From a virus, in IMG/VR virus record IMGVR_UViG_3300005340_000048, positions 1 through 44,495 of that record: a stretch of DNA of 44,495 bases; one strand, 5' to 3'. Made by a program: the position numbers and the translations under genes. Of the stretch, positions 3,402 to 42,633 are shown piece by piece. Each line of letters begins with the position of its first letter. Position 1 is the first letter of the stretch. The notes below the pieces were generated by a model. The model saw nothing but the letters and a program-made list of their open reading frames with translations, did not search any database and was not told the origin of the DNA.

Positions 3402-3409
3402 CAGGCTTC

Positions 3410-3415: not shown

Positions 3416-3422
3416 TCAATGA

Positions 3423-9485: not shown

Positions 9486-9487
9486 TC

Positions 9488-9493: not shown

Positions 9494-9499
9494 AGGCCC

Positions 9500-10213: not shown

Positions 10214-10219
10214 TATCTG

Positions 10220-10651: not shown

Positions 10652-10671
10652 TACTTCTAGATAGCTAAAAC

Positions 10672-10677
10672 TAAAAT
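10672..10677 (+). promoter_or_regulatory. start-proximal -10 element (TAAAAT)
   Basis: ACTAAAAT with 6 bases to ATG 10684. The gap has no ribosome site. Confidence 0.5.
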
Positions 10678-10683
10678 GGCCTA

Positions 10684-12054: not shown

Positions 12055-12527
12055 TCGCAGTGAAGAATATTCATTGCTTCCAATGTTCTACTCTGCCCGT
12101 CAATAGAGATCTGAATAGATTTGGCAGAAACACCCGGAATGCCCTGTGGGTGGTCCTGCAAAAATTCAATAGAAGCACCTCTTCTGATCTGAACATCATT
12201 TCTTAGAGCACAAAGAGCTAGCGTAGTTCTATTGGCTTCTTTTGCAATATCATTTCTTCGATTTAAAGAATCTGTATAGAAAAAAGACCCCAAAATAGCT
12301 AAACTTAGATAAAGTCCAACAGTTGCAGCAGTTAGCCACCTAATTGCCCCAGTAATAGGTTTTCCACGAGGCTGATAACTTCCACCAGTTCCTCCGGCAC
12401 CACCTGCGCCTCCTGTGTCATAGCCTACTCCGCCGACTCCTCCTGCTCCTCCGGCCCCTCCAGATTCTCCAGTTCCCTTCTCTCCTGGCATTCCTGGTCT
12501 TCCCTCATGTGGGCTAAAATTATCCAT
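12051..12527 (-). CDS. membrane protein with collagen-like Gly-rich N-terminus
   Basis: A 158-residue protein. Residues about 8-50 are Gly-rich with GxxGxx triplets (GRPGMPGEKG, then GGAGGAGG blocks), followed by a basic segment and one transmembrane helix at about 66-86, then a soluble part with two Cys. It starts 8 bases inside the end of the coiled-coil membrane protein gene, so the two probably work together. Its stop TAA shares TTAA with that of the + strand repeat-protein gene. A lysis or host-envelope role is possible but unproven. Confidence 0.68.
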   Translation of the reverse strand: MDNFSPHEGRPGMPGEKGTGESGGAGGAGGVGGVGYDTGGAGGAGGTGGSYQPRGKPITGAIRWLTAATVGLYLSLAILGSFFYTDSLNRRNDIAKEANRTTLALCALRNDVQIRRGASIEFLQDHPQGIPGVSAKSIQISIDGQSRTLEAMNILHCD

Positions 12528-12915
12528 GAGATTCCAATTCAGTGACTCGTCTTCTTAATTTTACATTTTCATCACGAAGGGTTATATTTTCCTCGCTTAC
12601 ACGATGAAGTTGACTTCTCAACTCATCAATAGTTGCTTCATGGCCTTCAATCATTCTTTTAAGGTTTCCATTCTCAAGATAAAGTTGGTCATTTCGTCTT
12701 TCAAGTTCATCAATTCTTTGCTGACAGTTATAGATAACTTTGTTTAACTCTTCAATTCTCTTTTGATAGTCCTGACGAATAGACCTAGACTCTTCCCATA
12801 GATCAGCGGCTTCTGAGGAAGCCACTTTCCCTGACAGTCTTCTCGCCGCCGCCAAATAGCCAAGCAGCGGGGCGGCAAGGATGCCAATTAGAGTCAGGAT
12901 TATAGTAGGCTCCAT
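12520..12915 (-). CDS. membrane-anchored coiled-coil protein
   Basis: A 131-residue protein. Residues 4-22 form a transmembrane anchor (IILTLIGILAAPLLGYLAA) and residues about 45-128 a continuous coiled coil with heptad Leu/Ile spacing. This topology resembles spanin-like or membrane-organising proteins, but there is no lipobox. TATGAT lies 6 bases before its ATG, within the 21-bp divergent gap. It forms an antisense two-gene cassette with the 12051 gene inside the virion region. Confidence 0.68.
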   Translation of the reverse strand: MEPTIILTLIGILAAPLLGYLAAARRLSGKVASSEAADLWEESRSIRQDYQKRIEELNKVIYNCQQRIDELERRNDQLYLENGNLKRMIEGHEATIDELRSQLHRVSEENITLRDENVKLRRRVTELESHG

Positions 12916-12936
12916 ATACCTATCATAGTTATATAT
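12916..12936. promoter_or_regulatory. divergent promoter region between start codons
   Basis: The 21-bp gap between two divergent start codons contains CTATCATAG, which reads as C-TATCAT on + and C-TATGAT on -. The - strand copy is 6 bases from its ATG. There are no ribosome sites on either side. Confidence 0.5.
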
Positions 12937-13536
12937 ATGGATTTCTTGGATATTCAGAACGAAGTAATCTCTGACCGCTTTGACGAGGGGCGGAGGGACA
13001 GTGTTAAGACCTGGATCAACTACCGTTATGGTCGAATCTGGGCTGCGGCTGACTGGACTTTCAAACTTCAGACCACAACTTTAACGGTTAACCAGGGCAC
13101 CCAGAGCATTTCTAGGGGCACAATAGGTGATATTCTCTCTGTCTCAGATGGGACTTATGGGACTGGATATGACCCTATGTATGCCTATAGGCCTGAGGAA
13201 TTCTTCGATAAGTCGGTACTTACTGCGGCTAGGCCTAGTGCCTACACGATCATTGGGGATCTTATTTGGTTTAATGCCCCACTTGATGTAATTAGGACCT
13301 ACCAGATTGTCAGCGAAGTGAAATTCACCGCCCTGGTTAATGATATTGATACTCCTGCTATTCCTAGTGAATTCCATTACATTCTCGTCCATGCCGCTGC
13401 TGCGGAGGGTCTTCTAAAGGAAAGCGACCCCGGATGGCAGGGAGAAGAACAGCAGTATGAGAGCGCGTTGGATGGAATGAAGTCCGAATATCTCTCAAAC
13501 GCTGTTTATTACGATCATTTGCCAACATGGCCCTAA
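12937..13536 (+). CDS. head-completion / tail adaptor protein
   Basis: A 199-residue protein. The N-terminus MDFLDIQNEVISDRFDEGRR with VKTWINYRYGRIWAAADW is a pattern seen in head-tail adaptor proteins of short-tailed phages, which bind the portal after packaging. The C-terminal helical part with LVHAAAAEGLLKESDP fits too. It starts after the divergent promoter gap and is followed by the larger tail protein, the usual order in such phages. Confidence 0.65.
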   Translation: MDFLDIQNEVISDRFDEGRRDSVKTWINYRYGRIWAAADWTFKLQTTTLTVNQGTQSISRGTIGDILSVSDGTYGTGYDPMYAYRPEEFFDKSVLTAARPSAYTIIGDLIWFNAPLDVIRTYQIVSEVKFTALVNDIDTPAIPSEFHYILVHAAAAEGLLKESDPGWQGEEQQYESALDGMKSEYLSNAVYYDHLPTWP

Positions 13537-13539
13537 AAT
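13534..13539 (+). promoter_or_regulatory. start-proximal -10 element (TAAAAT)
   Basis: CCTAAAAT with 6 bases to GTG 13546. The element overlaps the stop codon of the upstream gene (TAA of CCCTAA). Confidence 0.45.
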
Positions 13540-13545
13540 AAAAGT

Positions 13546-15018
13546 GTGGCTGCTAGAGATCTTGTCTATAGGGACTTTTCGGGTGGAACCAATGCCAGAG
13601 ACTGGCCTTCTGAGCTTTCTCCGAATGAATTCCCTTATTCACTCAACGTAACGATTGACGAGCGAGGATATGCTCAAAAACGTCTGGGATATGAAGATCG
13701 TTATGGAGCGGCCATTGGTAGCGGGGTAGTAAGCAATCTTTTCTATTGGGCGACTAGCAATGCAATTGTGGCTCAGATTGGGTCAAGTCTGCACAAGGAT
13801 GGGGCTGCCTCCTTTAAAACCTTCTCCACCTCTGACCGCTGTGGAATGTGCGAGTTCGCAGGGAGTGTTTTTATTACTCACCCAATTGATGGTTGCTTCC
13901 TTTATGACGGAGTAACAGTTACTGCCGTTCCCACTGGGCCTAAGGGGAACTCCTGCGCCACCTGGCAGAATAGGGTTTGGGTCAATGATCTTACTGCTCC
14001 TCCGCGTCTGTGGAGGAGCGATGTAGGAACGGCGGCTACGTTTGGAGTAGGAAACTTTACTGATATTAGAGAAAAAGACTCTGCTCAAATTCGTTGCATC
14101 ACAGGTTCTTCTGGCCTTGATATCGCAGGTCGTCCTGGTTTGCTTGTCTTCAAAGATTCTTCTGCCTACAGAATTAATGATCCCTCCACGGGCGGATACC
14201 AAACTATTGATCCTTCTGTTGGCTGCGGAAGCAATATCGGCGGCGTTTCGGCATACGGACGAACCTATGTAATTTCCACAAGAGGAATTTATTCCACCGA
14301 TGGTCTGTCCCCCTGCCGTGAAGAGAGCAGACTTATGGAACCTCTGTTTAATAAATTGCAGATCAATCAGTCTCGCCCAGATCTATATTGCGCTGGTCGA
14401 TATCAGGACAGGCTGTGGTTCTCATTGCCTAGGGCTGGAGCTTCTTCTAATTCAATTGCTCTTGAATATCACCCGGAAAGCAAGTGGATTGTCGCTCACA
14501 CTAATGCTGCCTCTGCTTACGCAATTCTTACGCAGACTACTGACCTTGTTTTTGGATCTCCAACTACAAATAGGATTTATAACCTAGCAAAAGGAGGCTC
14601 TGATGCTGGAGTTGCTATCTCTTCTGCATTTCAGACCAGATGGGCTGAGCCTGCTGACGGAAGGAAAGGGAGGCTGAGAAAGGCCCGATTTGTAGGACGC
14701 GGAACTTTCCAGGCTGACTATTTCAAGGATTATCAAAGCGGGCCTTCACAGGCGGCTAGTCAGGTAAATATTAATCCTGGAGGCCTTGTCTGGAATGAGG
14801 GGAACTGGAATGAAGCAGAATGGGGTCCTCTCTTCTTTCAGTCTTATCAGACTTTTTGGAGCCTTGGAACCTGTAGGGCTTTGTCTGTATATATCAGCGA
14901 AACCTCATCTATTTCTACCTCAGGACTAACGGTTGCTGGTGGAGTTGTCCCTACGGAAATTGGGGCCTGGGAGTTGGCCTACATTGATTTCCTGACTTAT
15001 GACCTAGGCACCTTTTAA
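13546..15018 (+). CDS. tail hub / propeller-like structural protein
   Basis: A 490-residue protein from GTG 13546. The N-terminus (YRDFSGGTNARDWPSEL, then LNVTIDERGYAQKRLGYE) is typical of a large tail or stabilisation protein that follows the adaptor in many short-tailed phages. The body has repeated beta blades with short WN/W motifs, and the middle reads like a propeller (GRTYVISTRGIYSTDG). It probably forms the tail tube or nozzle below the adaptor ring. Confidence 0.68.
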   Translation: MAARDLVYRDFSGGTNARDWPSELSPNEFPYSLNVTIDERGYAQKRLGYEDRYGAAIGSGVVSNLFYWATSNAIVAQIGSSLHKDGAASFKTFSTSDRCGMCEFAGSVFITHPIDGCFLYDGVTVTAVPTGPKGNSCATWQNRVWVNDLTAPPRLWRSDVGTAATFGVGNFTDIREKDSAQIRCITGSSGLDIAGRPGLLVFKDSSAYRINDPSTGGYQTIDPSVGCGSNIGGVSAYGRTYVISTRGIYSTDGLSPCREESRLMEPLFNKLQINQSRPDLYCAGRYQDRLWFSLPRAGASSNSIALEYHPESKWIVAHTNAASAYAILTQTTDLVFGSPTTNRIYNLAKGGSDAGVAISSAFQTRWAEPADGRKGRLRKARFVGRGTFQADYFKDYQSGPSQAASQVNINPGGLVWNEGNWNEAEWGPLFFQSYQTFWSLGTCRALSVYISETSSISTSGLTVAGGVVPTEIGAWELAYIDFLTYDLGTF

Positions 15019-15021
15019 ACT
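15016..15021 (+). promoter_or_regulatory. start-proximal -10 element (TAAACT)
   Basis: TAAACT with 7 bases to ATG 15029. The element contains the upstream gene's TAA stop. Confidence 0.4.
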
Positions 15022-15028
15022 GTAGGTA

Positions 15029-15835
15029 ATGCCAACAGTCTCTCTTACAGACCCTGCTCCTCATACTAATGCAGACGCAGGAGTAATTGCAACCAATAAC
15101 GGGAACCTTAGAACGCTTCTTAACGGAGGAATTGATGCTGCAAATCTTCTGGGTACTCCTAGCCTTGCTTCTGGAGAAGTTCCTGTATGGAATGGCTCTC
15201 AGTTTGTTAGATCAACAGTTACAAGGGTTGGCGCAACGAGCCTTGGGTCTGGAACTCCTGATTCTACTAAATATCTGAGAGGAGATGGTTCTTGGCAGAC
15301 GCTAACCATTCCATCAATTGGATATGCAACTACTTTGCCTGGATCTCCTACAGACGGACAGGAAAGTATTCTGGTTGATTCTCTAACCGTTCCCACTTAC
15401 CAATGGAGATTCAGATGGAATGCTGGTTCTGCTAACACAGATAAGTGGGAATATGTTGGCGGAACTGCGGCAGTTACAGAAACTCCTAACGCAGACCTTT
15501 TGAATGCCAATGCGGTTTATACCACCATTGCTAATGCAGGTCCTAGTTTTGCTCTACCTCGCGCAGGCGTGTATACGGTCGAAGTAGGTTGCTTCCCGAA
15601 GCAGACCGCAAATGCCCACTATTACATGAGCTATGACATTGGCGGGACAGGCGCTGTAGACGCCGACGCTTTTGAAGGAGACTGGGGTAACGGAGGAAAC
15701 GGTACTGCTGGTAGCTTCGCACGAACTAAGTCTGGGCTTACCGCAGTGACTTTGACCGCAAAATACAAGTCTCTAACGGGAAATACTACGTTCGCAAAAC
15801 GCTGGATGCGCGTTACGCCAGTTCGGGTAAGTTAA
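15029..15835 (+). CDS. tail fibre / receptor-binding protein
   Basis: A 268-residue protein. The middle segment STKYLRGDGSWQTL is a short motif found in many phage tail fibres just before the C-terminal receptor-binding domain. The last 120 residues form a beta-rich region (AGPSFALPRAGVYTVEVG, then KRWMRVTPVRVS) like a TNF-type jelly-roll tip. Its TAA interlocks with the antisense stop at 15832 in TTAA. Confidence 0.72.
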   Translation: MPTVSLTDPAPHTNADAGVIATNNGNLRTLLNGGIDAANLLGTPSLASGEVPVWNGSQFVRSTVTRVGATSLGSGTPDSTKYLRGDGSWQTLTIPSIGYATTLPGSPTDGQESILVDSLTVPTYQWRFRWNAGSANTDKWEYVGGTAAVTETPNADLLNANAVYTTIANAGPSFALPRAGVYTVEVGCFPKQTANAHYYMSYDIGGTGAVDADAFEGDWGNGGNGTAGSFARTKSGLTAVTLTAKYKSLTGNTTFAKRWMRVTPVRVS

Positions 15836-16920
15836 ACTCTTCCTGCTCCACCCACTGCATAACGAAGAACATCAGGACTCTTAATTGGAGTAAGAGCAGC
15901 CGCCAACGGAGTAGACGGAATATCAGAAGGAGCAGGAGTTGTATCTACAGGGGGAGGAGTAGGAGCAGCCATATCGGGAGGACCGAGAGGAGTCCATTCG
16001 GTTGAAGATCCTGAAGGAGTATCGTATTTAATCCATACACCTGCCTGATTGCCGTGGTATTCAATATGTCCTTCCTGTTTTACTCCGTGGACACTAAAAC
16101 CGTGATTAGCAGCATACTGTTGGGCTGCCGCAGAAACTGCATCGCCGGAATATCCTGCGCTAGCAAGCGCTGACGCAGAGCCTGCATCCCATTCCAGGCC
16201 GCTGGAATCAACCACAGAACCATTTGGCATAGATTCATACCCCGCCCTTTGAAGTGCTGCCTGAGTAGCTGCATCCAATTCCTGTTGTCTAGCAGTTTCC
16301 TTAGAGGTGAGCAGACCCGTATCAATCCCTGCTAGCATATCGCGCAGACGTGAACCAATACCCCCTTCAGCAGAAGCTCTTCCCTGATTCAATAGAGAAA
16401 GATTATTTGCGTACTCACCGGAATACAGCAAATTCTGAGCAGACATCGCCTCCTCAAGCTGCTTCTGACGAGCCGCAAATTCCCTCTGAAGCTGAGCATA
16501 CTCCGACTCGGGATTCTGTCCCGCTGCCGTAAGAGTATTCTCATCGAAATTCAGGTCTTTACCCACTGAGGTAAGTCCAGAGGAAATAAGAGCATCCTTT
16601 CTCAATTGAGCCGCGTTAGTAGTGGCATTATTGACCGTCTGAGAAGCCAATGCCTGGATCTTGCTCAAAATGGGGTCATAGTCAAAACTTGAGTCAAAAT
16701 TCGTCTGAGGAATTGAAGCTGCATTTACCTGCTTCTGCTGCAAAAGAGCAGAAGCCAAATCCTGCCCTCCAAAAGGAGAAGAGGACTCAATCCCAGAAAC
16801 ACCTCTCCGGGGCACTGAATAAGGCTGATAGGCCTTGGGATAGGTGTATGAAGTTCCATAGGTTCTCTTGCTCCCCGAGGGAGAAGATTTGGAACTCAGA
16901 TAATTGGAGAGATAGGCCAC
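15832..16920 (-). CDS. internal virion-like protein
   Basis: A 362-residue protein from GTG 16920. It has a Ser/Tyr-rich N-terminus, a helical Gln/Ala-rich middle (QLQREFAARQKQLEEAMSAQ) and a Pro-rich C-terminus. The helical Ala/Gln pattern resembles the + strand gene that diverges from it at 16939, and both may be internal or ejected proteins. Transcription is opposite to its neighbours, from a palindromic promoter at 16923-16936. Confidence 0.62.
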   Translation of the reverse strand: MAYLSNYLSSKSSPSGSKRTYGTSYTYPKAYQPYSVPRRGVSGIESSSPFGGQDLASALLQQKQVNAASIPQTNFDSSFDYDPILSKIQALASQTVNNATTNAAQLRKDALISSGLTSVGKDLNFDENTLTAAGQNPESEYAQLQREFAARQKQLEEAMSAQNLLYSGEYANNLSLLNQGRASAEGGIGSRLRDMLAGIDTGLLTSKETARQQELDAATQAALQRAGYESMPNGSVVDSSGLEWDAGSASALASAGYSGDAVSAAAQQYAANHGFSVHGVKQEGHIEYHGNQAGVWIKYDTPSGSSTEWTPLGPPDMAAPTPPPVDTTPAPSDIPSTPLAAALTPIKSPDVLRYAVGGAGRV

Positions 16921-16922
16921 TA

Positions 16923-16936
16923 CTAGAATATTCTAG
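16923..16936. promoter_or_regulatory. perfect palindrome between divergent start codons
   Basis: CTAGAATATTCTAG is a perfect 14-bp palindrome with exactly 2 bases to ATG 16939 on + and 2 bases to GTG 16920 on -. On each strand it presents TAGAAT 9 bases from the start codon. It is probably a bidirectional promoter and/or the site of a dimeric regulator. Confidence 0.6.
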
Positions 16937-16938
16937 GT

Positions 16939-18327
16939 ATGCCTTGGGGTGTTTATAAGCAAAAGAAGAAGCCATATGTTGTTGGTGGGTTCTCAGTCGT
17001 GTCTAAACCCAAAAAGCCGAAGAAGTATTCGGTTGGAGGTTTTACCCAGGTTTCTGGTTCCAAGGGCGTAGGGAAGCTCTCAGGGGGCGTAGGAGCGCCT
17101 TCTGTAGTCAACCGTCTGTTGGGGAATTCCGCTGCCGCAGGAGGCGTAGGGGCAGATACTTCGCAATATGACCCATATCCCTCTTATAACGATCCCTTCT
17201 CTGGGATGCTTGCCAATCTTGCTAGGCAGGAAGCTCTTGCCGAGGGTCAGCTTAAGGGAAATCTTGTAGGCCGTGAAGCGGCTATTAAAAAGCTCTACGC
17301 AGACCAGGTTCCTCTAGTAGATGCTAATTACAACCAGGCAATCAAAGAATCTGCTGCTGTCAATGATGCTGTGGCTAATCAGCTTCACTCTCAGGGAGAT
17401 GCAACTAATGCAGATCTTCTTTCCAGGCTTGCAGGAATTAACGCTCCTCAGGGAGCTACAGATCAGGCCGCTCAGCAGGTAAAGGATTATTACGGCGGAC
17501 TTAGCAATGCCAACTACGCAATGGATGCTGGAGATGTTCAGAGGCTTATTGGAGCATTGTCAGAAGCTCAGAATTACTTGGCTAAGCAGCCCGGAGTTAT
17601 CGCTCAGCAGCTTGAGAGCGAATATGCACAAGCTATAGCTCAACTTAAATCTGATTACATGAGTCAGTCAACTGATCTCCAGGGACAGCAGGCCTCTGGT
17701 CTTAACGATTACAACTTGCAGAAGTTCGGCTACGAACAGGACCAAAAGAGCAAGCAGGCAGATGCTAAGGCCAAGATTGCTCAGGACGCTGAAGATCGTT
17801 ATTGGGATAACTATTGGAAGCAACGTGATTATCAGCAGAAGCGGTATGAGCTTGCTGTGGCTACCAATAACAAGAAAATGCAGCTTGCAGCGCAAGCAGA
17901 GATGAAGAGACTTGATAGGCAAAAGGATGTTGACCTTGCAAAGATCAGGTCTAATACTCAGATTGCCACTAATGCTAATACAGTTAATCAGTCCAATATC
18001 AACAACCAGAGAACTACTCAGACCTCTGCGGCTAATAACGCTGCAAATAACGCTGCCAAGGGAAAGAAAGTTGTAACTGGAGCTACAGTCGTTAAGGCTA
18101 AGCAGGCCTCACTGAATGCAGTGTTTAATGGAACTTTCGTGAGAGATGGAATTGTTAACGACGGGAACGTTCAGGCCAAAGTCAATAACCAACTTCGTGC
18201 TTACGGGATTGATCCCTACTCAACTCAAGGCACTGCAATTAGGAAATGGGTGTTTTCTCAGCTAAACGGCAAGAAGAATCGACAGGGCCGTGTGTGGAAG
18301 TCTGGTAAAGATCGGCTGCCTAAGTAA
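16939..18327 (+). CDS. internal virion-like protein
   Basis: A 462-residue protein. The N-terminus is basic with two Lys/Pro-rich repeats ending VGGF (residues 12-18 and 31-35). A long Gln/Ala/Asn-rich helical region with coiled-coil character (about 190-390) follows. No catalytic motif. The gene size, helicity and position just before the 619-residue protein fit the ejected proteins stored inside short-tailed phage heads. Confidence 0.65.
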   Translation: MPWGVYKQKKKPYVVGGFSVVSKPKKPKKYSVGGFTQVSGSKGVGKLSGGVGAPSVVNRLLGNSAAAGGVGADTSQYDPYPSYNDPFSGMLANLARQEALAEGQLKGNLVGREAAIKKLYADQVPLVDANYNQAIKESAAVNDAVANQLHSQGDATNADLLSRLAGINAPQGATDQAAQQVKDYYGGLSNANYAMDAGDVQRLIGALSEAQNYLAKQPGVIAQQLESEYAQAIAQLKSDYMSQSTDLQGQQASGLNDYNLQKFGYEQDQKSKQADAKAKIAQDAEDRYWDNYWKQRDYQQKRYELAVATNNKKMQLAAQAEMKRLDRQKDVDLAKIRSNTQIATNANTVNQSNINNQRTTQTSAANNAANNAAKGKKVVTGATVVKAKQASLNAVFNGTFVRDGIVNDGNVQAKVNNQLRAYGIDPYSTQGTAIRKWVFSQLNGKKNRQGRVWKSGKDRLPK

Positions 18328-18328
18328 C

Positions 18329-18334
18329 TAAGAT
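18329..18334 (+). promoter_or_regulatory. start-proximal -10 element (TAAGAT)
   Basis: CTAAGAT with 6 bases to ATG 18341. No ribosome site. Confidence 0.45.
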
Positions 18335-18340
18335 ATAGCT

Positions 18341-20200
18341 ATGGGACTTGGCCCCGCTCCTAAAGCAGCAAAGAAGAAGTCCAAACACCGAGGCTTTTTC
18401 GGTTCTATCGGCCACGCCATTGGAGGAACTTCTCGGGGTATTTATCACGGAGTAACCGGATTCCCCACTGGGGTCTATATGACCGGTAGGGCCTTGGGCC
18501 ACGATTTGGCCCATCCAGATATTCATCATCCCCTTGGATTTGGTAAGCATTCTCACCTTGGGCCAATCGTAAAAGGGATGGCTAAAAGCGAGTATGATGC
18601 CTATCGGCATTTCGGCCGTGGAGGGGATTATTCTACTCCTATTTTCGATGCTCTGGCGCTTCTCTCAGGAGGCGGAGCAGTTGTAGGTAAGGCAGGGGCT
18701 GCATCTAGGGCTTTGAGGGCGGGAGAAGGGCTTACAGGGGCAAATAGAGCTATTCTGAGGAGCTACCCACACAGCCGCCAGATCCCTGGACAGCCCTATC
18801 GTATCCCTGCTTCTCCTAACCCTCTGATGAGGGGTATTCAGGTGGCTGCTCTGAAGAACCCCAAAATAGCAGGGAGAGCTTTGGAAAGACGAAATTGGCA
18901 GGCTGAGAGGTTTCAGCGTCAGCTTACTCAGGGAACAAAAACAGTTCCCTATAAAGGAAAGGTTCAACTTCCTCCAGGAGTAAAAGTTGCAGCCCATCAG
19001 GTCAAAAATAAGCCCAATAGAAAAAGTCCGCTCTGGCAGAAGACTTTGGATGCTCCTATGGATGCTCTAAGGCTTGCAATGTGGGCACGTCCTAGGTATT
19101 ACGCACAGAACATTACTCAGACTGGACAGATGCTTGGAACTAATCCTTTTGCTGCTTCTAAAGCAGTTGGAAGAATGTCGAAGGTAAGAAAGAGTAATAC
19201 AGGGCTTTACAAAGATCTTCAAAACATCACTGGAGAGGGACAGGCTCTTGCTTCTCAGGCTGGTCGCGTTTCTCGCTCCAGGGCTATGGAATGGGCCGGT
19301 AAGACGGCTAATGCGCCTGAGGCTCATATCAGAGTCATCTCAATCATGAAGGAGTTGGATAGAGAGGGATTTAAGACTGAAAAACAAATGGTAAGGGCAA
19401 TGAAGGAGCTTAAGAGCGGTAAGCCAAGTTCTAGGGCGCTTAACGCGGCAATTAGGGCTAATGAAAATGTGGGAGACTTCGGGCGGCTTAGCAAAACAGA
19501 GCGCCAGTTTATGAAGGCACAGATTCCAATCTTCTACCCAATGTTTAAGGCTCTTACGCGATATGGATATCGCTTCCCGTTTGAGCATTCCATTCAGGCT
19601 GCTGCAATTCAGAAGGTTGGTAAGTCAGGTAAAGCAGAGCAGAAAAGACTTTTAGGAGATCTTCCATTCTGGGCGCAGTATCTTGTCCCGAAGGGGGCAG
19701 GAGATCCTAATGCAAAGAAAGGACCTAGGCAGGCTGTCTTTAATCCTGGAAATATTTATAACTTGCAGCCTGGAACCGATATCACTCGTCAGGCTTTTGA
19801 AGCTCCTACTAGGAAGGGCGGTCCTATTCCAGGAATTAATCTTTTGCAGGAAATTGCTCCAGCAATTCAGCTTGGATATGGAATGGAAACTGGAAAGGAT
19901 ATTCAGACCGGATATCCAATCAAGGGGCCAACCAAAAGAGCAGGAATTGATATTCCCCTTAACTTCCTGGCAAGCCTGCCTCTGAGTGATCTTGTTGCTA
20001 TTTCCAGAGGACAGCCGCCTACTCATGTTCGTTCTTATTTCCCGCCGTCCACTTGGCGTCGTATTGCTCTGGAACTTGGTCCTGGACCTTGGGCCGTAAG
20101 TAGGGATCTTAAAACCAAGGAAACTACGAAACAGGCTAAGAGAGAAAAGAGAGTAGGAATGGGACGTAAGAAGCGGAAGCATAAGGCTCCTAATTTCTAG
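18341..20200 (+). CDS. large internal virion (ejection) protein
   Basis: A 619-residue, very basic protein. It has a Lys-rich start, a Gly-rich hydrophobic segment (about 100-120, ALALLSGGGAVVGKAGAASRA) that could cross or perturb a membrane, a Pro/Lys-rich middle, and a C-terminus ending in a Lys/Arg cluster (GRKKRKHKAPNF). It is the largest protein here apart from the portal, and lacks enzyme motifs. It probably enters the host with DNA. It ends just before the bidirectional terminator. Confidence 0.65.
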   Translation: MGLGPAPKAAKKKSKHRGFFGSIGHAIGGTSRGIYHGVTGFPTGVYMTGRALGHDLAHPDIHHPLGFGKHSHLGPIVKGMAKSEYDAYRHFGRGGDYSTPIFDALALLSGGGAVVGKAGAASRALRAGEGLTGANRAILRSYPHSRQIPGQPYRIPASPNPLMRGIQVAALKNPKIAGRALERRNWQAERFQRQLTQGTKTVPYKGKVQLPPGVKVAAHQVKNKPNRKSPLWQKTLDAPMDALRLAMWARPRYYAQNITQTGQMLGTNPFAASKAVGRMSKVRKSNTGLYKDLQNITGEGQALASQAGRVSRSRAMEWAGKTANAPEAHIRVISIMKELDREGFKTEKQMVRAMKELKSGKPSSRALNAAIRANENVGDFGRLSKTERQFMKAQIPIFYPMFKALTRYGYRFPFEHSIQAAAIQKVGKSGKAEQKRLLGDLPFWAQYLVPKGAGDPNAKKGPRQAVFNPGNIYNLQPGTDITRQAFEAPTRKGGPIPGINLLQEIAPAIQLGYGMETGKDIQTGYPIKGPTKRAGIDIPLNFLASLPLSDLVAISRGQPPTHVRSYFPPSTWRRIALELGPGPWAVSRDLKTKETTKQAKREKRVGMGRKKRKHKAPNF

Positions 20201-20209
20201 TATCCTATT

Positions 20210-20268
20210 AAAGAGCCGTTTTTAGACTCGCCGGGCTACGGCCTATAAAAGGGAGTCGCGGCTCTTTT
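20210..20268. terminator. bidirectional stem-loop terminator
   Basis: A nested hairpin between convergent genes. The outer 9-bp stem is AAAGAGCCG (20210-20218) with CGGCTCTTT (20259-20267); inside are GACTC/GAGTC and GCCG/CGGC. It has T-rich flanks in both directions (CTCTTTT on both strands), as expected for a two-way Rho-independent terminator. Confidence 0.7.
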
Positions 20269-20506
20269 ACCTTTTAATAGACTCAGGCAGGACTCCGACC
20301 GCAGGAACAGGCGTTACCCCCTTGGTTAGAAGGTCCACTACAGCCTTCACAGCCGCAGACGCCCCTGCAACCACCGCTGATACCGCTAGGGCTTTCACTC
20401 CGTCGAAGTTCGGTGCGGCTCCGATTCCGGAAAGGGTAGCGATAAAGACCGGGACGAATGCGAATACAAATACTCTAGCAACTTCCTTAAGAAAGGTTTT
20501 ATTCAT
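20267..20506 (-). CDS. holin-like membrane protein
   Basis: A 79-residue protein with two hydrophobic helices (about 9-27 and 36-60, VKALAVSAVVAGASAAVKAVV) separated by a short loop, and charged ends; this is a class II holin-type layout. It would make the hole that releases the lysins. It has a strong ribosome site (GGGGGAAG) before ATG 20506 and overlaps the upstream gene's end by 8 bases. The lysozyme-like gene is divergent at 20717 and the amidase is at 22431. Confidence 0.7.
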   Translation of the reverse strand: MNKTFLKEVARVFVFAFVPVFIATLSGIGAAPNFDGVKALAVSAVVAGASAAVKAVVDLLTKGVTPVPAVGVLPESIKR

Positions 20507-20699
20507 AATCTTCCCCCATTGTATCAGAAAGTTTCCAGTGCTCTTCGATAAGGAATTGACAAATAGCCTTGCCTGCCAAATCGTGCAATTCTAGGTCTGC
20601 ATCAGGGGCTACAAGCATGGTGAATTCAATGGGGTGTTTTTCGGGGCCAGTAAATGTCATGAATGAGAATTCCCCCTGAAATGTGTAACAATTCAGCAT
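20499..20699 (-). CDS. hypothetical small acidic protein
   Basis: A 66-residue protein upstream of the holin. ATG 20699 has TATGAT 9 bases upstream, in the divergent promoter gap. An alternative ATG at 20660 is preceded by GGGGG 11 bases upstream and would give 53 residues. It is acidic at the end (SDTMGEDYE). Unknown; it may regulate lysis, by position. Confidence 0.55.
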   Translation of the reverse strand: MLNCYTFQGEFSFMTFTGPEKHPIEFTMLVAPDADLELHDLAGKAICQFLIEEHWKLSDTMGEDYE

Positions 20700-20716
20700 C
20701 CTTTCATAATCATATA
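20700..20716. promoter_or_regulatory. divergent promoter region
   Basis: A 17-bp gap between start codons. CATAAT is 6 bases from GTG 20717 on +, and TATGAT is 9 bases from ATG 20699 on -. The same layout is seen at 12916-12936 and 16923-16936. Confidence 0.45.
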
Positions 20717-21598
20717 GTGGCTACGAATAGATCGGGATTAATTCTTAGTTTGGCTAGGAGTCTGGGGATTCGTGATCCTCGGGCTGTACTATCAGTAGCC
20801 GCTCAAGAAGGACTTGGTGGAGGCATTGGAGATAGAGGCACGTCTTTCGGCCCATTTCAACTGCATGTAGGAGGGGCCTTCCCGTCCGGCATTCAGGGCA
20901 ATAGACATCAGTGGGCCTGGAGTCGCCCTGGTCTTCTTTATGCATTAAACCGTATTAAAGTAGTTGCGGGTAATAGACAGGGTGCTGATGCCATTGCGAA
21001 TATTGTCAATAGGTTTGAAAGGCCTGCTAACGCGCAGGGAGAAATTGCTAAAGCGCTTGCTTATTATCGTGGTGGAGGATATTCCTCATCCCTTAACGGC
21101 GGACCTGGGAGCTACCCAGGTATTGGAACCGCCTCTTCCCACGGAGACAATCGCGCGCTTCTCAATGCCATTATAAACAATCAGAGCCTTATTCCTGCTA
21201 TTACAGCAATGCAAGCCTCGCCAGAGCAGGCGCAAATTCATCCACAATCTGCGCTCCCAACGACTGGAACTGTCCCTGCTGAATTGTTCTATCGGAATCA
21301 TGCTCTGAAATTTGGGAAACACATCGGGGCGGTGAAGGGTCATTATGACCATGTTCACGTTGCAGAAACCAACCCTCAGGCAATGCTCGCCGCAATCTCG
21401 TTGGCACAAAGACTAGGCCTTCGGGTAGCTGAAAACCCTTACGAGGGAGGGGTGAATCCTGTTCATGTGAAGAATTCATATCACTATCGTAGCTTTAAAG
21501 AGAAATACCACGGGAAAAGACTAGGAGAGGCAATTGATGTTTCTGGACCACCTAAACTCATGGGTAGGTATTACCAATTGCTTGCAGCCGGAAGATGA
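20717..21598 (+). CDS. virion-associated lysin (transglycosylase-like plus peptidase-like)
   Basis: A 293-residue protein starting at GTG 20717, chosen because of the -10 element; a frame from 20663 adds 18 unlikely residues. Residues about 20-60 (SVAAQEGLGGGIGDRGTSFG) form a lysozyme/transglycosylase-like catalytic start with Glu and the GD/FGPFQ core. A second part contains HYDHVHVAE, and near the end YHYRSFKEKYHGK then LGEAIDVSG, resembling M15/LAS-type metallopeptidases (H...H, D). It may degrade peptidoglycan during entry or lysis. It overlaps the next gene by 4 bases. Confidence 0.7.
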   Translation: MATNRSGLILSLARSLGIRDPRAVLSVAAQEGLGGGIGDRGTSFGPFQLHVGGAFPSGIQGNRHQWAWSRPGLLYALNRIKVVAGNRQGADAIANIVNRFERPANAQGEIAKALAYYRGGGYSSSLNGGPGSYPGIGTASSHGDNRALLNAIINNQSLIPAITAMQASPEQAQIHPQSALPTTGTVPAELFYRNHALKFGKHIGAVKGHYDHVHVAETNPQAMLAAISLAQRLGLRVAENPYEGGVNPVHVKNSYHYRSFKEKYHGKRLGEAIDVSGPPKLMGRYYQLLAAGR

Positions 21599-22125
21599 GA
21601 AGAATAGACCGAAATACAAACAGTGGGACAGCGGCCTCTCGGAGAAGTCATACCGGAGCTGCTCAAATACTCAGGCCTAAATCACCGGCTCCCCATATAT
21701 CTGGTAAACACCTTCTAATTCAGTTGGCAGATATCGCTACTGGATTGCCTACAATCATTAATGCAGCTAAACAAGTTCATGCAGGAGGAGGCGGTAGAGC
21801 GCAGCTTGCTCTTGCGGCTAGCACTCCAATGGGAAGAATTAAGTTCCCTGACTTTATGACACCTCCAGTTAGACCAGGAGGATATTCAAGAAGAGGAAGA
21901 TTGGATCTTCTTAACGCCACTAGAGAGCTAGGAGGGGTTACTGCCTTTGATAAGGCTCATCCACGCCTAGGCCCTTCATATCCAATTGCAAAAGAACGCA
22001 AGCTTCTTGGCTACGGGCCTCCAGGCGGGGATTTCCTAAGTCATGTGGCTCGTCTAAATGATCCTGAGGCTAGCCGGGCAATGGTTGAGTGGATGATGCT
22101 TCATCACTACAGGCGTCCTAATTAG
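21595..22125 (+). CDS. hypothetical basic virion-region protein
   Basis: A 176-residue basic protein starting in an ATGA overlap with the lysin gene. It is rich in Arg, Gly and Pro, with short helical parts (LLIQLADIATGLPTIINAAKQ). No catalytic motif. Its TAG stop shares TTAG with the TAA of the antisense gene. It is probably structural or DNA-binding; not recognised. Confidence 0.62.
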   Translation: MRRIDRNTNSGTAASRRSHTGAAQILRPKSPAPHISGKHLLIQLADIATGLPTIINAAKQVHAGGGGRAQLALAASTPMGRIKFPDFMTPPVRPGGYSRRGRLDLLNATRELGGVTAFDKAHPRLGPSYPIAKERKLLGYGPPGGDFLSHVARLNDPEASRAMVEWMMLHHYRRPN

Positions 22126-38085: not shown

Positions 38086-38260
38086 CAAAGAACTGAAGTA
38101 CCTAGCGTTTAATGAAGTATTCGATGCCTTGGCAGAAGGAGATATTGCCAAGGCTTTGCACGTTCTGGATCGCAGTACCTTTTCTGATAACGAAAAGGCA
38201 ATTCTGTCAGAACTTCTGACAACCTTCAAGGAAATTAAGGTGGTGGATTTCAGTGCTTAA
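38063..38260 (+). CDS. hypothetical small helical protein
   Basis: A 65-residue protein from ATG 38063 with GGGAGGAA upstream, overlapping the previous gene by 23 bases. It is fully helical, ending DFSA. Its stop carries the AGTGCTTAA junction with the next gene's GTG start. Unknown. Confidence 0.65.
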   Translation: MQTREAPNKELKYLAFNEVFDALAEGDIAKALHVLDRSTFSDNEKAILSELLTTFKEIKVVDFSA

Positions 38261-38420
38261 TCCAGAGACAAAGACCGCGCTGAACGAGATGCGAAAAGAA
38301 CTTGAAGAAGTCGAGCGGCAGAAAGCCCGAGAAAGGGGTAAGGCAATCGGTCGCAAGATCGACCAGACGGAACTTTGTTATAAGCAATACTCTCCCCCGC
38401 AGATTCAAAATGCTGTTTAA
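38253..38420 (+). CDS. small charged protein (55 aa)
   Basis: Starts at GTG 38253 in AGTGCTTAA, overlapping the upstream stop, and ends at TAA 38418-38420, overlapping the ATG of the next gene by 11 bases. It has a highly charged helix (ELEEVERQKARERGKAIGR). Function unknown. Confidence 0.6.
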   Translation: MLNPETKTALNEMRKELEEVERQKARERGKAIGRKIDQTELCYKQYSPPQIQNAV

Positions 38421-38634
38421 ACCTGGAGATTTAGTTAAGTCTATTCAGGAACCATTTCCAACTGGTCCATTGGTAGTTCTTGCATTTGCAACAGTGGACC
38501 CAATAAAGGAAAAACAATGGGGCAAGCCATATTACTGGGTCTACCCACTAGATCCTGCCGAAGTTCCTAGCTACATTAAGGATTATTCCGCAGGATGGTT
38601 AGAAGAAAACCTGGAGTTGATTAAAAGTGCGTAA
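38410..38634 (+). CDS. KPGD/SH3-like tandem family protein 1
   Basis: A 74-residue protein from ATG 38410; a longer upstream frame is a shadow. It starts MLFKPGDLVKS, has a beta-rich core and the phrase YYWVYPLDPAE, and ends ELIKSA. KPGDxV at a strand start is typical of SH3-like barrels that bind nucleic acid or peptides. First of five stand-alone copies; the family also appears in the next large gene. It overlaps the next gene through AGTGCGTAA. Confidence 0.65.
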   Translation: MLFKPGDLVKSIQEPFPTGPLVVLAFATVDPIKEKQWGKPYYWVYPLDPAEVPSYIKDYSAGWLEENLELIKSA

Positions 38635-38881
38635 TCTAAAAGTAGGAGATCTTGTTACTTACAAACATGCAGATCCTGGCTATGGATCTCTTGTTGTAAT
38701 TTCGGAAGGAGAAAATCATCCTATTTCAGATTATGAGTATGGTAATACCTATATCTGGGTAATGCCTCTAGATCCATCGCTTCATTCTGAATGGGAAGAC
38801 AATCATACTTCTGGCTTTAGGTTCATCGGAATTCAGGAAGATCAGCTTATAAAAGTAGAAGAGGAAATTCCGTTCTCATGA
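38627..38881 (+). CDS. KPGD/SH3-like tandem family protein 2
   Basis: An 84-residue protein from GTG 38627, inside AGTGCGTAA. NLKVGDLVTY at the start and YIWVMPLDP in the middle mark it as a paralogue of the 38410 product. An acidic tail (KVEEEIPFS) distinguishes it. The next gene starts 4 bases before its end (ATGA). Confidence 0.65.
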   Translation: MRNLKVGDLVTYKHADPGYGSLVVISEGENHPISDYEYGNTYIWVMPLDPSLHSEWEDNHTSGFRFIGIQEDQLIKVEEEIPFS

Positions 38882-39090
38882 AAAAGGGAGATCTAGTAAC
38901 CGTTAAACATCCGGGAAGCAAACAAACTCTTTGCGTGGTCTGGGGAATAGGAAGAATTAAACCAGTAAAAGAAAGAGACTACAAACAAACTTACGTCTGG
39001 GTATCTCCTTTAGATCCAGCCGAAAGAGCTTTTGACTTCGAAGGACTTCCTTGTAATGGTTTTTATAAGGAGTATGTTCACATTGCTTAA
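38878..39090 (+). CDS. KPGD/SH3-like tandem family protein 3
   Basis: A 70-residue protein from ATG 38878 (ATGA overlap). KKGDLVTVKHP at the start and YVWVSPLDPAER share the family pattern with its two upstream neighbours. It ends before the next ATG at 39074, with a 17-base overlap. Confidence 0.65.
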   Translation: MKKGDLVTVKHPGSKQTLCVVWGIGRIKPVKERDYKQTYVWVSPLDPAERAFDFEGLPCNGFYKEYVHIA

Positions 39091-39295
39091 AGCAGGAGAC
39101 ATTGTTAGATGGAAAAAGACCGATATGTTACTCGTTGTCTGCAAAATAGGAGGAAATAGACCAGACGGAAGTATTCCAACAAAGGGTAATTGGGTTTGGG
39201 TAATCCCACTTGACCCAACCTTTAAATATCCTTCCTCTAGAAAGTGTTTCAACGGATATAACAAAAACTCTTTAACGATAATCTCCAGTGCCTAA
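39074..39295 (+). CDS. KPGD/SH3-like tandem family protein 4
   Basis: A 73-residue protein from ATG 39074, which has AAGGAG just upstream; a frame from 39032 is an upstream extension in another gene. LLKAGDIVRW and WVWVIPLDPTF keep the family signature. It ends IISSA and joins the next gene through AGTGCCTAA. Confidence 0.65.
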   Translation: MFTLLKAGDIVRWKKTDMLLVVCKIGGNRPDGSIPTKGNWVWVIPLDPTFKYPSSRKCFNGYNKNSLTIISSA

Positions 39296-39476
39296 ATTCA
39301 AACCCGGAGATATCGTTATCTGTGTACAAACAGAAAAAAGACTTACAAAGCTTCATGTTCCATGTGTCTATGAAGTTGAAAAGATAATGACACAAAACGG
39401 ACAAGAACTTCTGAAAAGAAAAGGATTTGACGGATATTTTCTTGAGTCCAGGTTCAGGTTGATTAAAAGTGCCTAG
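39288..39476 (+). CDS. KPGD/SH3-like tandem family protein 5
   Basis: A 62-residue protein from GTG 39288. FKPGDIVIC is kept but the WVxPLDP block is lost; instead it has YEVEKIMT and ends RLIKSA. It is thus intermediate between the first four copies and the N-terminal domain of the next gene. It joins that gene through AGTGCCTAG. Confidence 0.65.
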   Translation: MPKFKPGDIVICVQTEKRLTKLHVPCVYEVEKIMTQNGQELLKRKGFDGYFLESRFRLIKSA

Positions 39477-40713
39477 AGTCTATAAGTTCAAACCAGGAGA
39501 CAAAGTAGTAGCAAACTGTTCTCACGAAAAACTTGAAAAGGGAAAGACGTATACCGTAGAAAGGTATATCGAGTGGTTTAAAAAACCTCTACTAAGAGTC
39601 GAAGAAATTAGTAGTTCGTTTTACGAAGATCGTTTCGAGTTAAAGGAGAAGAAGTTGTCTTACACTTGTAGTTTTTGTGGTAACGAAGGCCATAATCGCC
39701 GAACCTGTCCCTCAGCCGTGAAAGGAAGTGGAGAATTGCTTGTCAAGGAAACAATCAAGTCCGGAGATCGTGTTACCCTCATCGACGTAGAAAAGGAAAT
39801 GTATCGAACTAAGGAAGTTGAGCCTTACTTCGGTCATACCTTTGAGGTAGTCGAGGTTAATGATTACGTCGTAATTTGTAAGCCAGAAGACACGACTGGA
39901 AAAACTTTTGGCGAGGGGAATAACCTTCACTTCCAGAAGTCAGTCTGGAAATTCGGAGCGGAGGACTCAGCTATGGCAGAGTTTAAGAAGCGGCTCAGCA
40001 TTTGGGAGCTAACAGAAACGATCATTCCGGTTTCACGTTTGACGTTGCTGTTTGGTCCTCCTGGTACTGGAAAGACAACGGCTGCAAACTTCGTGAAAGA
40101 TCACAGCGGAGAAACGCCGAAGGTTTACAACATTACCTTGACTGAAGAGACTCCTGCCGCAGAGTTGCGGGGTCACTTTATCCCGAAGGGTCATGAGTTT
40201 CACTGGATGGATGGCCCTGCACTTGCAGCTTTCAAGTCGGGCGCTCGTCTTGTCTTGAATGAGATTGACAAGGCATCTGGTGATGCATTGACTTTCTGCC
40301 ATGCACTTCTGGATGATCCTGGTATCGCAAGAATCACGTTGCCTTACAAGGACGAGAATGGCGATCCTGTAACCGTTATGCCACATGAGGATTTTCGGGT
40401 GATTGCAACAATGAACGGACACCCGGACGATCTTCCGGAAGCATTGCGGGATAGGTTTGCTGTTCGGATTAACATTGACCAACTTCATCCTGAGGCAATT
40501 AAGTCTTTGCCCTCTGATCTGAGGAATGCAGCAAAGAAGGGAATCAGCAGGGATACGGAAAGGTCAGTCAGCGTTCGTGGCTGGAAAGCCTTTGCATCTT
40601 TGCGTGATATCGTTGGTGAGGAGGAAGCCGCGCTTGCTGTCTTCGGTGAAAGAGCAGAAACTGTGCTTAACACCATTAAGATTTCAAGGGCTGGTGGTAA
40701 GGGAAAAGTCTAA
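39469..40713 (+). CDS. MoxR/CobS-like AAA+ ATPase with N-terminal KPGD and zinc-knuckle domains
   Basis: A 414-residue protein. Domain order: KFKPGDKVV (residues 6-14, family of the five upstream proteins), a CCHC zinc knuckle CSFCGNEGHNRRTC (67-80), a second SH3-like part (IKSGDRVTLI, about 96-105), then a AAA+ core: Walker A GPPGTGKT (196-203), Walker B LVLNEID (261-267), sensor 1 IATMN (312-316) and ALRDRF (325-330). It is a MoxR/CobS-type remodelling ATPase, which normally pairs with a VWA protein; one is encoded at 41212. Confidence 0.85.
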   Translation: MPRVYKFKPGDKVVANCSHEKLEKGKTYTVERYIEWFKKPLLRVEEISSSFYEDRFELKEKKLSYTCSFCGNEGHNRRTCPSAVKGSGELLVKETIKSGDRVTLIDVEKEMYRTKEVEPYFGHTFEVVEVNDYVVICKPEDTTGKTFGEGNNLHFQKSVWKFGAEDSAMAEFKKRLSIWELTETIIPVSRLTLLFGPPGTGKTTAANFVKDHSGETPKVYNITLTEETPAAELRGHFIPKGHEFHWMDGPALAAFKSGARLVLNEIDKASGDALTFCHALLDDPGIARITLPYKDENGDPVTVMPHEDFRVIATMNGHPDDLPEALRDRFAVRINIDQLHPEAIKSLPSDLRNAAKKGISRDTERSVSVRGWKAFASLRDIVGEEEAALAVFGERAETVLNTIKISRAGGKGKV

Positions 40714-40724: not shown

Positions 40725-41210
40725 GTGAAGAAAACTTCTGTTAATGATTTTAAAGTCGGAAATATTTTCAAATACAAAGGTAAAGGCCCTCATTTAGACC
40801 AAAGTGGAACTGCTTGTGTTACTTCGCTTAATGATAAGTATGTATCAGCCGAGGGAATAGATGGATATTACGAGGAGCATCAGGGGCTAGGTTTCTTTCT
40901 AGAGCACTACGATCTCTTCCTAGAAGAAGAAGTCTGGGTAGAAGATCTTCCAGAAGTAGAAGTTGTAATCCCTGGTCCTCCTTATATGACAAAGTGTTGG
41001 CATAACAGTCAACCAGAATCAAACTTTGATTGGTATGGAGGCGGAAAGGATAAGTTAAAAGGAAATAAATGGGAAGACCTAAAAGAAGCTGAAGACTGGT
41101 TTATCGAATTCTCGAAAAACAGGCAATTCAACTACAAGATAATTGATGAAAAAACAGAGACAGAAATCCTTCATATCTTTGAAGGTGAAGTAATTAAAAG
41201 GATGGTGTAA
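40725..41210 (+). CDS. KPGD-like domain plus C-terminal domain protein
   Basis: A 161-residue protein from GTG 40725. The first 70 residues (DFKVGNIFKYKG, then ISAEGIDGYYEEH-like text) recall the KPGD family, and the last part is acidic and aromatic-rich (NFDWYGGGKDKLKGNKWED). It sits between the ATPase and the VWA protein, so it could be a partner or adaptor (inference). Confidence 0.6.
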   Translation: MKKTSVNDFKVGNIFKYKGKGPHLDQSGTACVTSLNDKYVSAEGIDGYYEEHQGLGFFLEHYDLFLEEEVWVEDLPEVEVVIPGPPYMTKCWHNSQPESNFDWYGGGKDKLKGNKWEDLKEAEDWFIEFSKNRQFNYKIIDEKTETEILHIFEGEVIKRMV

Positions 41211-41211
41211 T

Positions 41212-42633
41212 ATGGGATTCCTTAGACGAACTTACCGCGCCAGGCCTATTCCTGAACTGCTTGACGGAGAGAACTGGGAGGTAAGAAATTCCAATGATGT
41301 GAGCAGGGCTTACGTTGATTTTGATAAACGTGAGTTCGTAGTTCCATTTGAGGAAAGTCCGGCAGGAGAACTCACAAGAGCGCATGAAGCTATGCATGTG
41401 AAGATTTCTCCTAGGGATTACGTCCGTCCCGATGATATGGGATTCACAACCTTGCAATCTGTTGAGGATTGCCGTGTCTGGCAGGGACTTCGTGTTTGTG
41501 GAATTGAAACAAATAATAAAAGAGCAAGAATCTTTGACGATGAAAGACTAAAAGAGGCTTTCTCTAGTCCACAAATGCAGCATCCCATGAAACACGCGGA
41601 AGCCTTGTTTGCGACAAGAGGGACAGCGGAAGAAAAGGCCTGTCGTGAATTGTCTGATAACAGGGCTGTAGAAATCGTTGACAAACTTGCAGAGAAGTAT
41701 TTTAATCCCGATGAACGCAATGGGAAGATTACTTCTTTTGAGGACGCAATGCAATGTGCAGAAGAATTGCGTCAAATGATCGAAGAGGCAACTCCAGAAA
41801 TGGAAATGCCTGAGCCTGACGGAGATCCCAGGGCAGAGCCGGGTGAGGAAGGAGATCAGAATGGGAATATCACTTATTCCTGGGAGCCTGCTCCTGAAAG
41901 CCCAGAGCAGACAAGCATTTCCAATTTGACTGAGGAGGAAAAGCAGGAAGCAAAAGATATGGGTCTTGATCATATTCCTGAGAACGAAGTAACTTCATTC
42001 AGGTATCCGAATGATTTTTCTGACCCAGGAAAGCTCAGGCCTATTGAGCATCCCAAACTCGATCATGCAATTAAGTTCAAGATGACCGACAGCGTAAAGA
42101 TGACACCCTCAGACGAAGGAGTTATTCCAGTCAGAATGCATCGGTATGCAACTGATATGAAACTCTTTTCTAGAAAGGGTCGCCGCCGCGCTGGAGCCGC
42201 TGTTCTTATTGATGTAAGCGGTTCAATGTCATTGAGCAATGAGATGATTCTGGATATCATCAAACAATGTCCAGCATCTATTGTTGCGATTTACTCGGGC
42301 TTTAGAACTGATGGTATTCTCCGTATCGTTGCAGAGAACGGAAGATACAACACAGATCTAAAGCGTGGAATGGGTGGAGCTAATGTAGTGGACATTCCTG
42401 CGCTGCATTGGCTCGCTAAGAGAAAGGAAAAGAAAAAGCTCTGGATTTCTGACGGTTGGATTACAACTAAGAATGAGAATATGGCTTATGAGGAAGAGAT
42501 TCGTAAGCTAACTAATCTCATGAGAGAAAAGAAGATTGAGCGGGTAGGAAATGTCCGAGAGCTTTTGAAGTCCGGAAAACTCATTGACCATGCCTTCGAT
42601 GATGGTCACGAACTTGGAAGGGGAACGAAATAA
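41212..42633 (+). CDS. VWA-domain protein with HExxH (CobT-like partner of AAA+)
   Basis: A 473-residue protein. HEAMH at residues 58-62 is an HExxH metallopeptidase-like motif in an N-terminal domain. The acidic low-complexity middle (about 185-245, PEMEMPEPDGDPRAEPGEE) is followed by a VWA domain with MIDAS DVSGSMS (334-340) and a later conserved Asp-Gly pair. The layout is that of CobT/VWA partners of MoxR-type ATPases, here in the same operon. Metal-dependent adhesion and peptidase activity are inferences. Confidence 0.82.
   Translation: MGFLRRTYRARPIPELLDGENWEVRNSNDVSRAYVDFDKREFVVPFEESPAGELTRAHEAMHVKISPRDYVRPDDMGFTTLQSVEDCRVWQGLRVCGIETNNKRARIFDDERLKEAFSSPQMQHPMKHAEALFATRGTAEEKACRELSDNRAVEIVDKLAEKYFNPDERNGKITSFEDAMQCAEELRQMIEEATPEMEMPEPDGDPRAEPGEEGDQNGNITYSWEPAPESPEQTSISNLTEEEKQEAKDMGLDHIPENEVTSFRYPNDFSDPGKLRPIEHPKLDHAIKFKMTDSVKMTPSDEGVIPVRMHRYATDMKLFSRKGRRRAGAAVLIDVSGSMSLSNEMILDIIKQCPASIVAIYSGFRTDGILRIVAENGRYNTDLKRGMGGANVVDIPALHWLAKRKEKKKLWISDGWITTKNENMAYEEEIRKLTNLMREKKIERVGNVRELLKSGKLIDHAFDDGHELGRGTK

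Follow-up and report, generated by a model that had tools for sequence, protein, structure and literature searches.

How does a phage ATPase come to be preceded by a row of small genes, one of which resembles its own N-terminal domain, and what could such an arrangement serve? The question is raised by a 44,495-base IMG/VR record (IMGVR_UViG_3300005340_000048), called here the window, which belongs to a phage known solely from metagenomes. On its + strand, between 38410 and 42633, four mini-genes k1-k4 (70-84 residues) and a fifth one, k5 (62 residues), are followed by a MoxR/CobS-type ATPase (414 residues), a seventh gene, g7 (161 residues), and a gene encoding a VWA protein (473 residues). 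Comparison with close relatives makes it highly probable that the array, together with the domain fused to the ATPase, constitutes a single replaceable allelic cassette, the ATPase core and the VWA partner remaining constant. We propose that the locus encodes exchangeable target-recognition modules working on a MoxR-VWA machine, and give this mechanism as a whole a probability of about 0.42.

The initial annotation placed six genes at 38410-40713 and a related seventh at 40725, positions that we recovered. The anatomy of the locus, of which we are practically certain, is as follows.

38253-38420: conserved anchor open reading frame, whose end overlaps the start of k1
38410..38634, + strand: k1, WVxPLDP-family mini-protein, 74 residues (open reading frame; z 13.4-13.5 against k2 and k3)
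38627..38881, + strand: k2, WVxPLDP-family mini-protein, 84 residues (open reading frame; shuffle test; SH3-like AlphaFold model)
38878..39090, + strand: k3, WVxPLDP-family mini-protein, 70 residues (open reading frame; shuffle test)
39074..39295, + strand: k4, WVxPLDP-family mini-protein, 73 residues (open reading frame; a TTG start at 39083 is possible)
39288..39476, + strand: k5, free-standing KPGD protein, 62 residues (z 9.4 against ATPase residues 1-62; alignment)
39469-40713, + strand: ATPase gene, 414 residues
39469..39654, + strand: ATPase residues 1-62, fused KPGD domain, SH3-like in the predicted model, hypervariable among relatives
39667..39708, + strand: ATPase residues 67-80, CCHC zinc knuckle (motif), retained in G002-G005
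39724..39990, + strand: ATPase residues 86-174, linker or second domain, beginning with IKSGD
39991..40713, + strand: ATPase residues 175-414, MoxR/CobS-type AAA+ core (AAA_5 match)
40054-40077, + strand: Walker A, GPPGTGKT
40249-40269, + strand: Walker B-like motif, LVLNEID
40725..41210, + strand: g7, the seventh gene, with an N-terminal KxGD module (about residues 1-80) and a C-terminal part
41212..42633, + strand: CobT-like VWA partner, with an N-terminal HExxH (HEAMH, 41383-41397) and a C-terminal metal-ion-dependent adhesion site (MIDAS; DVSGSM, 42211-42228)

From k1 to the ATPase, every gene overlaps the next one by 4-17 nucleotides. The k1 and k5 proteins end in LIKSA and k4 in ISSA, and the next GTG start sits within each such ending (repeat D2), a pattern expected of duplicated, possibly translationally coupled units. 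RNA elements and tRNAs were searched for and none was found.

The replacement of the cassette becomes visible in the close relatives. The window (G000) has one nearly identical contig (L002/G001). Two further genomes, L003/G002 and L004/G003, carry two k1-k4-type genes and one k5-type gene, then the ATPase, g7 and VWA genes, that is 2+1 copies against 4+1 in the window, k3 and k4 having no separate copies there. At about 38,420, DNA identity drops from ~0.93 to ~0.5; it is back to ~0.95 at about 39,700, within the ATPase gene. The left border of the variable cassette thus lies just inside k1 and the right one inside the ATPase gene, at the end of the head domain. Downstream of this border, the AAA+ core (residues 175-414) is identical to that of L003 at 240 of 240 positions, with a synonymous divergence (dS) of 0.28, and the preceding segment 86-174 shows 2 changes in 89 residues; over residues 86-414, the same 2 amino acids are all that differ from the close relatives (dS 0.21-0.28). 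The VWA protein is 97% identical in L003 (dS 0.31). Inside the cassette, identity with the L003 counterparts drops to 43% for k1 (dS 2.5), about 55-56% for k2 (dS 0.73), 53% for k5 (dS 1.3) and 46% for ATPase residues 1-62, where non-synonymous divergence (dN) reaches 0.47 and dS is saturated and not computable.

Since dS jumps as well as dN, the cassette appears to have been replaced by a divergent allele rather than to have accumulated fast substitutions. Diversification by substitution alone was rejected because of this jump, which is clearest in k1, k5 and ATPase residues 1-62; the dS of k2 is barely above that of the N-terminal part of g7 (0.63) or of the open reading frame at 43055 (0.61), and k2 taken by itself is no proof of replacement. 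Diversification through diversity-generating DNA repeats was also rejected: the repeats of the locus measure just 14-22 nucleotides, the variable region does not have the form of a short variable repeat, and no reverse transcriptase was found among the proteins scanned, which did not include every open reading frame. As G002 and G003 share one array allele, a single exchange event is seen twice, not two events. The structural interchangeability of the modules is well supported, in keeping with the initial proposal of an interchangeable set: the array and exactly the N-terminal domain of the ATPase are replaced in two close relatives with the rest of the ATPase nearly identical, the copy number changes, and a distant relative bears a different N-terminal domain on its knuckle-ATPase.

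More distant relatives display another head or none. Scanning viral contigs with a zinc-knuckle pattern returned 51 stretches, one of them from a distant relative on a 45-kb contig (G004). This genome retains the upstream anchor gene, the knuckle, the ATPase core (57% identity over the best segment of knuckle and core), the VWA gene and a gene at the position of g7. The position of the array is taken by one gene without detectable similarity to it, and the same knuckle-ATPase bears another, longer head, with the order VGE ... LIV ... VGG ... RP ... YWVW ... DP ... NGY. By alignment to k4 (z 6.2, 1/1000 shuffles, the best of eight comparisons), this head could possibly belong to the k1-k4 family. 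In L095/G005, knuckle and core stand alone, with no N-terminal domain, and two homologues from actinobacterial metagenome-assembled genomes (L100 and L101) are a bare core, adjoined by a full VWA gene in L100 and, in L101, by only the start of an open frame before the contig end. These comparisons suggest that heads may have been added and exchanged on a constant ATPase, the direction of change being taken from the order of the series and not from a tree. The L100 locus (644-3762, Acidimicrobiaceae), with its bare core and HExxH-VWA gene upstream of a 178-residue gene and nrdR, is likely a chromosomal homologue of the phage pair. The knuckle scan also brought up a viral protein family of ~300 residues, unrelated to the ATPase, which combines a CCHC knuckle with DAMQGLAHRV or, in some members, DAMRGLAHRV (L038, L041, L063, L064, L067, L074, L076, L081 and L084).

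What are the exchanged modules? The initial annotation had seen one tandem family expanding into an AAA+ ATPase. The tandem copies are real, and they fall into two related families. k1-k4 form a single family in shuffle tests (pairwise z 6.3-18.9, 0/500 shuffles reaching the score in any pair) with the common motifs KxGDxV ... VV ... WVxPLDP. k5 and ATPase residues 1-62 form the second one (z 9.4, 0/500), sharing KFKPGD ... Y ... RFxL, and the expansion into the ATPase holds for k5, which is homologous to the N-terminal domain of the latter. Direct pairs across families are mostly at chance level (the best, k1-k5, 2/500), and the two family profiles match each other (hhalign E 6e-6, probability 85%). 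The AlphaFold model of k2 is a short SH3-type beta-barrel, with a mean predicted local distance difference test score (pLDDT) of 76 and a predicted template modelling score (pTM) of 0.65; ATPase residues 1-62 are modelled as five strands in a barrel of the same type (pLDDT ~85 over most of the domain, mostly 73-87 over residues 11-60). The two representatives being SH3-like in prediction, the mini-proteins are probably distant relatives with SH3-like folds, and two families with one probable fold is the best description. Among the structural matches of k2 are SH3-type proteins (PWWP, CAP-Gly, photosystem I chain E, phage SH3-like), none reaching E 0.001; those from viruses are chiefly small phage proteins, of which one bears the name 'SH3-like domain protein'. 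k5 matches PHROG 4927 (E 9e-4). The WVxPLDP genes and g7 have no convincing family in Pfam, PHROG or NCBIfam, and profile searches of solved structures gave nothing meaningful.

The motor itself is well defined. Its core matches AAA_5 (E 2.2e-17) and PHROG 249, annotated as porphyrin biosynthesis / CobS-like (E 8e-20), and shows the features of the MoxR/CobS type, namely an AAA_5-type P-loop domain with both Walker motifs, a sensor 1 and the arginine residues: GPPGTGKT, LVLNEID, ATMN and LRDRF are conserved, and S[VI]RGW is present in the window, L003, L004 and G004. MoxR-specific models match weakly (bpMoxR 8e-4, under its cut-off), and the cobaltochelatase model TIGR02442 scores far under its cut-off. 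After the KPGD domain comes the knuckle motif, CSFCGNEGHNRRTC (CxxCxxxGHxxxxC, residues 67-80), which Pfam zf-CCHC_2 matches at E 4.6e-4 with 20.4 bits, below the curated cut-off of 27. CCHC knuckles and small SH3-like barrels are often nucleic-acid binders. Three of the parts initially ascribed to the sixth gene are confirmed, namely its KPGD domain, the CCHC motif and the ATPase. A second SH3-like part at residues ~86-174 is not accepted: this segment has KSGD near its start and no sequence link to other modules, its model is of low confidence (pLDDT ~30-40), and the whole-ATPase model is unusable past residue ~62.

The gene between the ATPase and the VWA gene likewise appears to exchange modules. 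The first 80 residues of g7 are 79% identical to those of close relatives; the C-terminal half, which in G002 and G003 forms a second KxGD module, is something else in the window. The relatives' two modules are related to each other (z 8.5), one being weakly like k3 (z 4.3). The initially supposed kinship of g7 with the mini-genes is only weak in the window (z 2.7 against k5).

The VWA partner shares the MIDAS motif DVSGSM with its relatives in alignment, and matches PHROG 33218 (E 4.5e-15). No Pfam VWA model reached E 1 on 41212-42633, and we therefore regard it as a divergent VWA protein. The HExxH motif is intact in the window (HEAMH), replaced by HTAMH in G004 and absent in L097. In the G004 partner (L091, 4539-5972, minus strand) the MIDAS motif is kept and the catalytic Glu is lost; peptidase activity thus looks dispensable there and would not be required throughout the window's group.

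Outside the locus, the bases matching window positions 1 and 44495 lie ~400 bases apart in the same orientation in G002 (L014 2947, 3351), and the record therefore seems to be a nearly complete genome of about 44.9 kb that is circularly permuted. Seven proteins of 176-619 residues, possibly virion proteins, are encoded on the + strand at 7833-22125 and match nothing in Pfam or PHROG at E 0.001; terminase and portal are recognisable on the opposite strand.

How could such modules work? MoxR-vWA pairs of phages and cells are, or have been proposed to be, couples of chaperone and co-chaperone (PMC7824862), and one class of cellular systems combines a constant pair with hypervariable partners (PMC7159879). 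With such machines as precedents, recognition is the simplest reading of a variable N-terminal domain. The SH3-like domain and the knuckle would form a head docking the ATPase on its substrate or target. The free copies, encoded by genes overlapping in series with that of the ATPase, would attach to additional targets, or to different faces of the same complex, and deliver targets to the MoxR-VWA machine in the manner of adaptors serving an AAA+ unfoldase or chaperone. By replacing the cassette, the phage could keep pace with targets that change, which are most plausibly host proteins or fast-evolving proteins of its own. This adaptor or target-recognition role is put forward tentatively, at a little under even odds. 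The broader idea of a constant AAA+ motor with replaceable recognition modules in cis and in trans, cassette-swapped to retarget the motor, is doubtful.

Several observations weigh against target recognition by exchangeable modules. Profiles of both families, so narrow that divergent SH3-like genes could escape them, detected no array up to 4 kb from any of 13 known phage MoxR/CobS ATPases. Of the two grounds on which the initial annotation would have been refuted, differing folds and a lack of association with MoxR elsewhere, the second thus applies at the 13 loci examined, and the first does not for the two modelled representatives; ICP2 has a single partial KxGD match ~2 kb downstream of its ATPase, which is not an array. 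As far as seen, the association is a feature of this small, uncultivated phage group, and the WVxPLDP family as a general associate of such ATPases is unsupported outside it. Two tblastn matches, one in Klebsiella phage AM_K4 and one in Escherichia phage ES2-BCU-3, were spurious (off-frame or on the wrong strand). Few genomes with such a head are known: the window, the near-identical G001, G002, G003 and, in divergent form, G004, and profile comparison gives no support to a link between the G004 head and the k1-k4 family. The k1-k4 family is unlike the fused family in this genome, k5 alone being a direct paralogue of the fused domain, and the free copies have no known tie to the ATPase, either physical or genetic. 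Small KPGD proteins also occur in phages without a MoxR neighbour (Mx1, Aristophanes), KPGD-type motifs are frequent (at least 600 stretches matched a pattern), and other mosaic blocks exist elsewhere in the relatives' genomes, so that this locus is not the only one to show exchange.

The lack of arrays at the 13 loci, the free-standing KPGD proteins of unrelated phages, the frequent motif and the mosaic blocks would all fit ordinary accessory genes, namely a series of duplicated small early SH3-like proteins that by chance lies upstream of an ATPase, with one copy fused to it by accidental read-through and a diversity due to the usual phage mosaicism. We nevertheless hold this unlikely, although it survives best among the alternatives. 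Exchange per se is not special; a block ending inside the ATPase gene, at the end of the head domain, is, and it makes the fused domain change with the array. Moreover, the head remains fused in G000, G002 and G003, and its place in G004 is occupied by a head that is very divergent or non-homologous.

Rapid replacement and changes in copy number are also typical of host-conflict genes, and cellular MoxR-vWA pairs are linked to conflict systems (PMC7159879). The small proteins could then act separately against host defences, as inhibitors or decoys that recombination has diversified, with the ATPase-VWA pair as an unrelated neighbour or a sequestering machine. This appears improbable: no known anti-defence family is among the Pfam, PHROG and NCBIfam matches, and PADLOC, whose models cover defence rather than anti-defence, gave only generic P-loop-type matches to the ATPase, the mini-proteins lying outside that scan. 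Least probable is a role in nucleic-acid metabolism, in which the SH3-like and CCHC modules, of kinds that often bind nucleic acid as mentioned above, would bind DNA or RNA and load the CobS-like ATPase in replication or virion assembly, the array providing binding paralogues: cyanophage cobS does lie near clamp and clamp-loader genes, but the MoxR-VWA machines whose function is known have proteins or cofactors as their substrates (PMC7159879, PMC8651126).

MoxR/CobST-VWA pairs are widespread in phages and haloviruses, and their substrate is unsettled, cobalamin, virion assembly and proteolysis having all been proposed. Natural alleles varying only the presumed docking part on a constant ATPase point to the part that may set specificity, and paired reagents, the same motor with different heads and free modules, could be used for finding the target. 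A retargetable motor, if true, would be a phage counterpart of the target-recognition domains of type I restriction or of tail-fibre tips.

Among known systems, RavA-ViaA of E. coli associates a MoxR ATPase with a VWA co-factor, like the pair of the window, and binds its target via an extra domain. That domain (LARA) differs from an SH3-like head at the N-terminus, and we know of no exchange between close relatives. The MoxR-VWA pair is known in actinophages, ICP2, jumbo phages and haloviruses (PMC8651126, PMC7824862, PMC7911831). In phage CobS/CobT-like pairs (PHROG 249, Gordonia phages, DSL-LC01, ICP2, cyanophages, haloviruses; PMC8651126, PMC7911831), an AAA_5/MoxR-type ATPase lies near a VWA gene, and several VWA partners have an N-terminal HExxH region, as in the window; in cyanophages, cobS is accompanied by a 'peptidase' gene regarded as mis-annotated cobT (PMC8651126). 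Actinophage CobS-like cores can be aligned to that of the window (27-34% identity); in two Microbacterium phages examined, rIIA-like genes, not VWA genes, adjoin the ATPase. Unlike in the window, no KPGD head, CCHC knuckle or KxGD array within 4 kb was found at the 13 phage loci. The MoxR AAA+ - vWA pair of jumbo phage group 2.2, a proposed virion-assembly chaperone, also has a VWA partner with a peptidase-like HExxH, whereas no tandem SH3-like modules are described for it (PMC7824862).

The small proteins have their own relatives. Those of PHROG 4927 type in Mx1 and Aristophanes are KPGD/SH3-like and resemble the k5 family, with a KPGD/KVGD start and an RFxL/RFK end; in contrast to the window, they show no tandem array and no AAA+ fusion in the loci examined. 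In Myxococcus phage Mx1 (L023 1732-2937), the KPGD protein lies in a small-gene cluster with no MoxR gene nearby, which also encodes two paralogous SH3-like-looking proteins (TGSKIKVV... and TGSRIKVV...).

A further parallel is with the cellular MoxR-vWA ternary conflict systems, which also join a constant couple to hypervariable partners (PMC7159879). Those systems are cellular, whereas the window is a phage and its variable parts are small SH3-like proteins. Their third components (VMAP, iSTAND, FtsH, beta-propeller) were absent from the Pfam, PHROG and NCBIfam matches of the ATPase, g7, the VWA protein and the scanned mini-genes, the genome being otherwise partly scanned. In the open-access full-text literature searched, a union of a MoxR-VWA pair and a KPGD array with allelic exchange of the fused head was not found. 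Thus, the ATPase-VWA pair and the small KPGD proteins were both known already, and what appears new in this locus is their union, with allelic exchange of the fused head.

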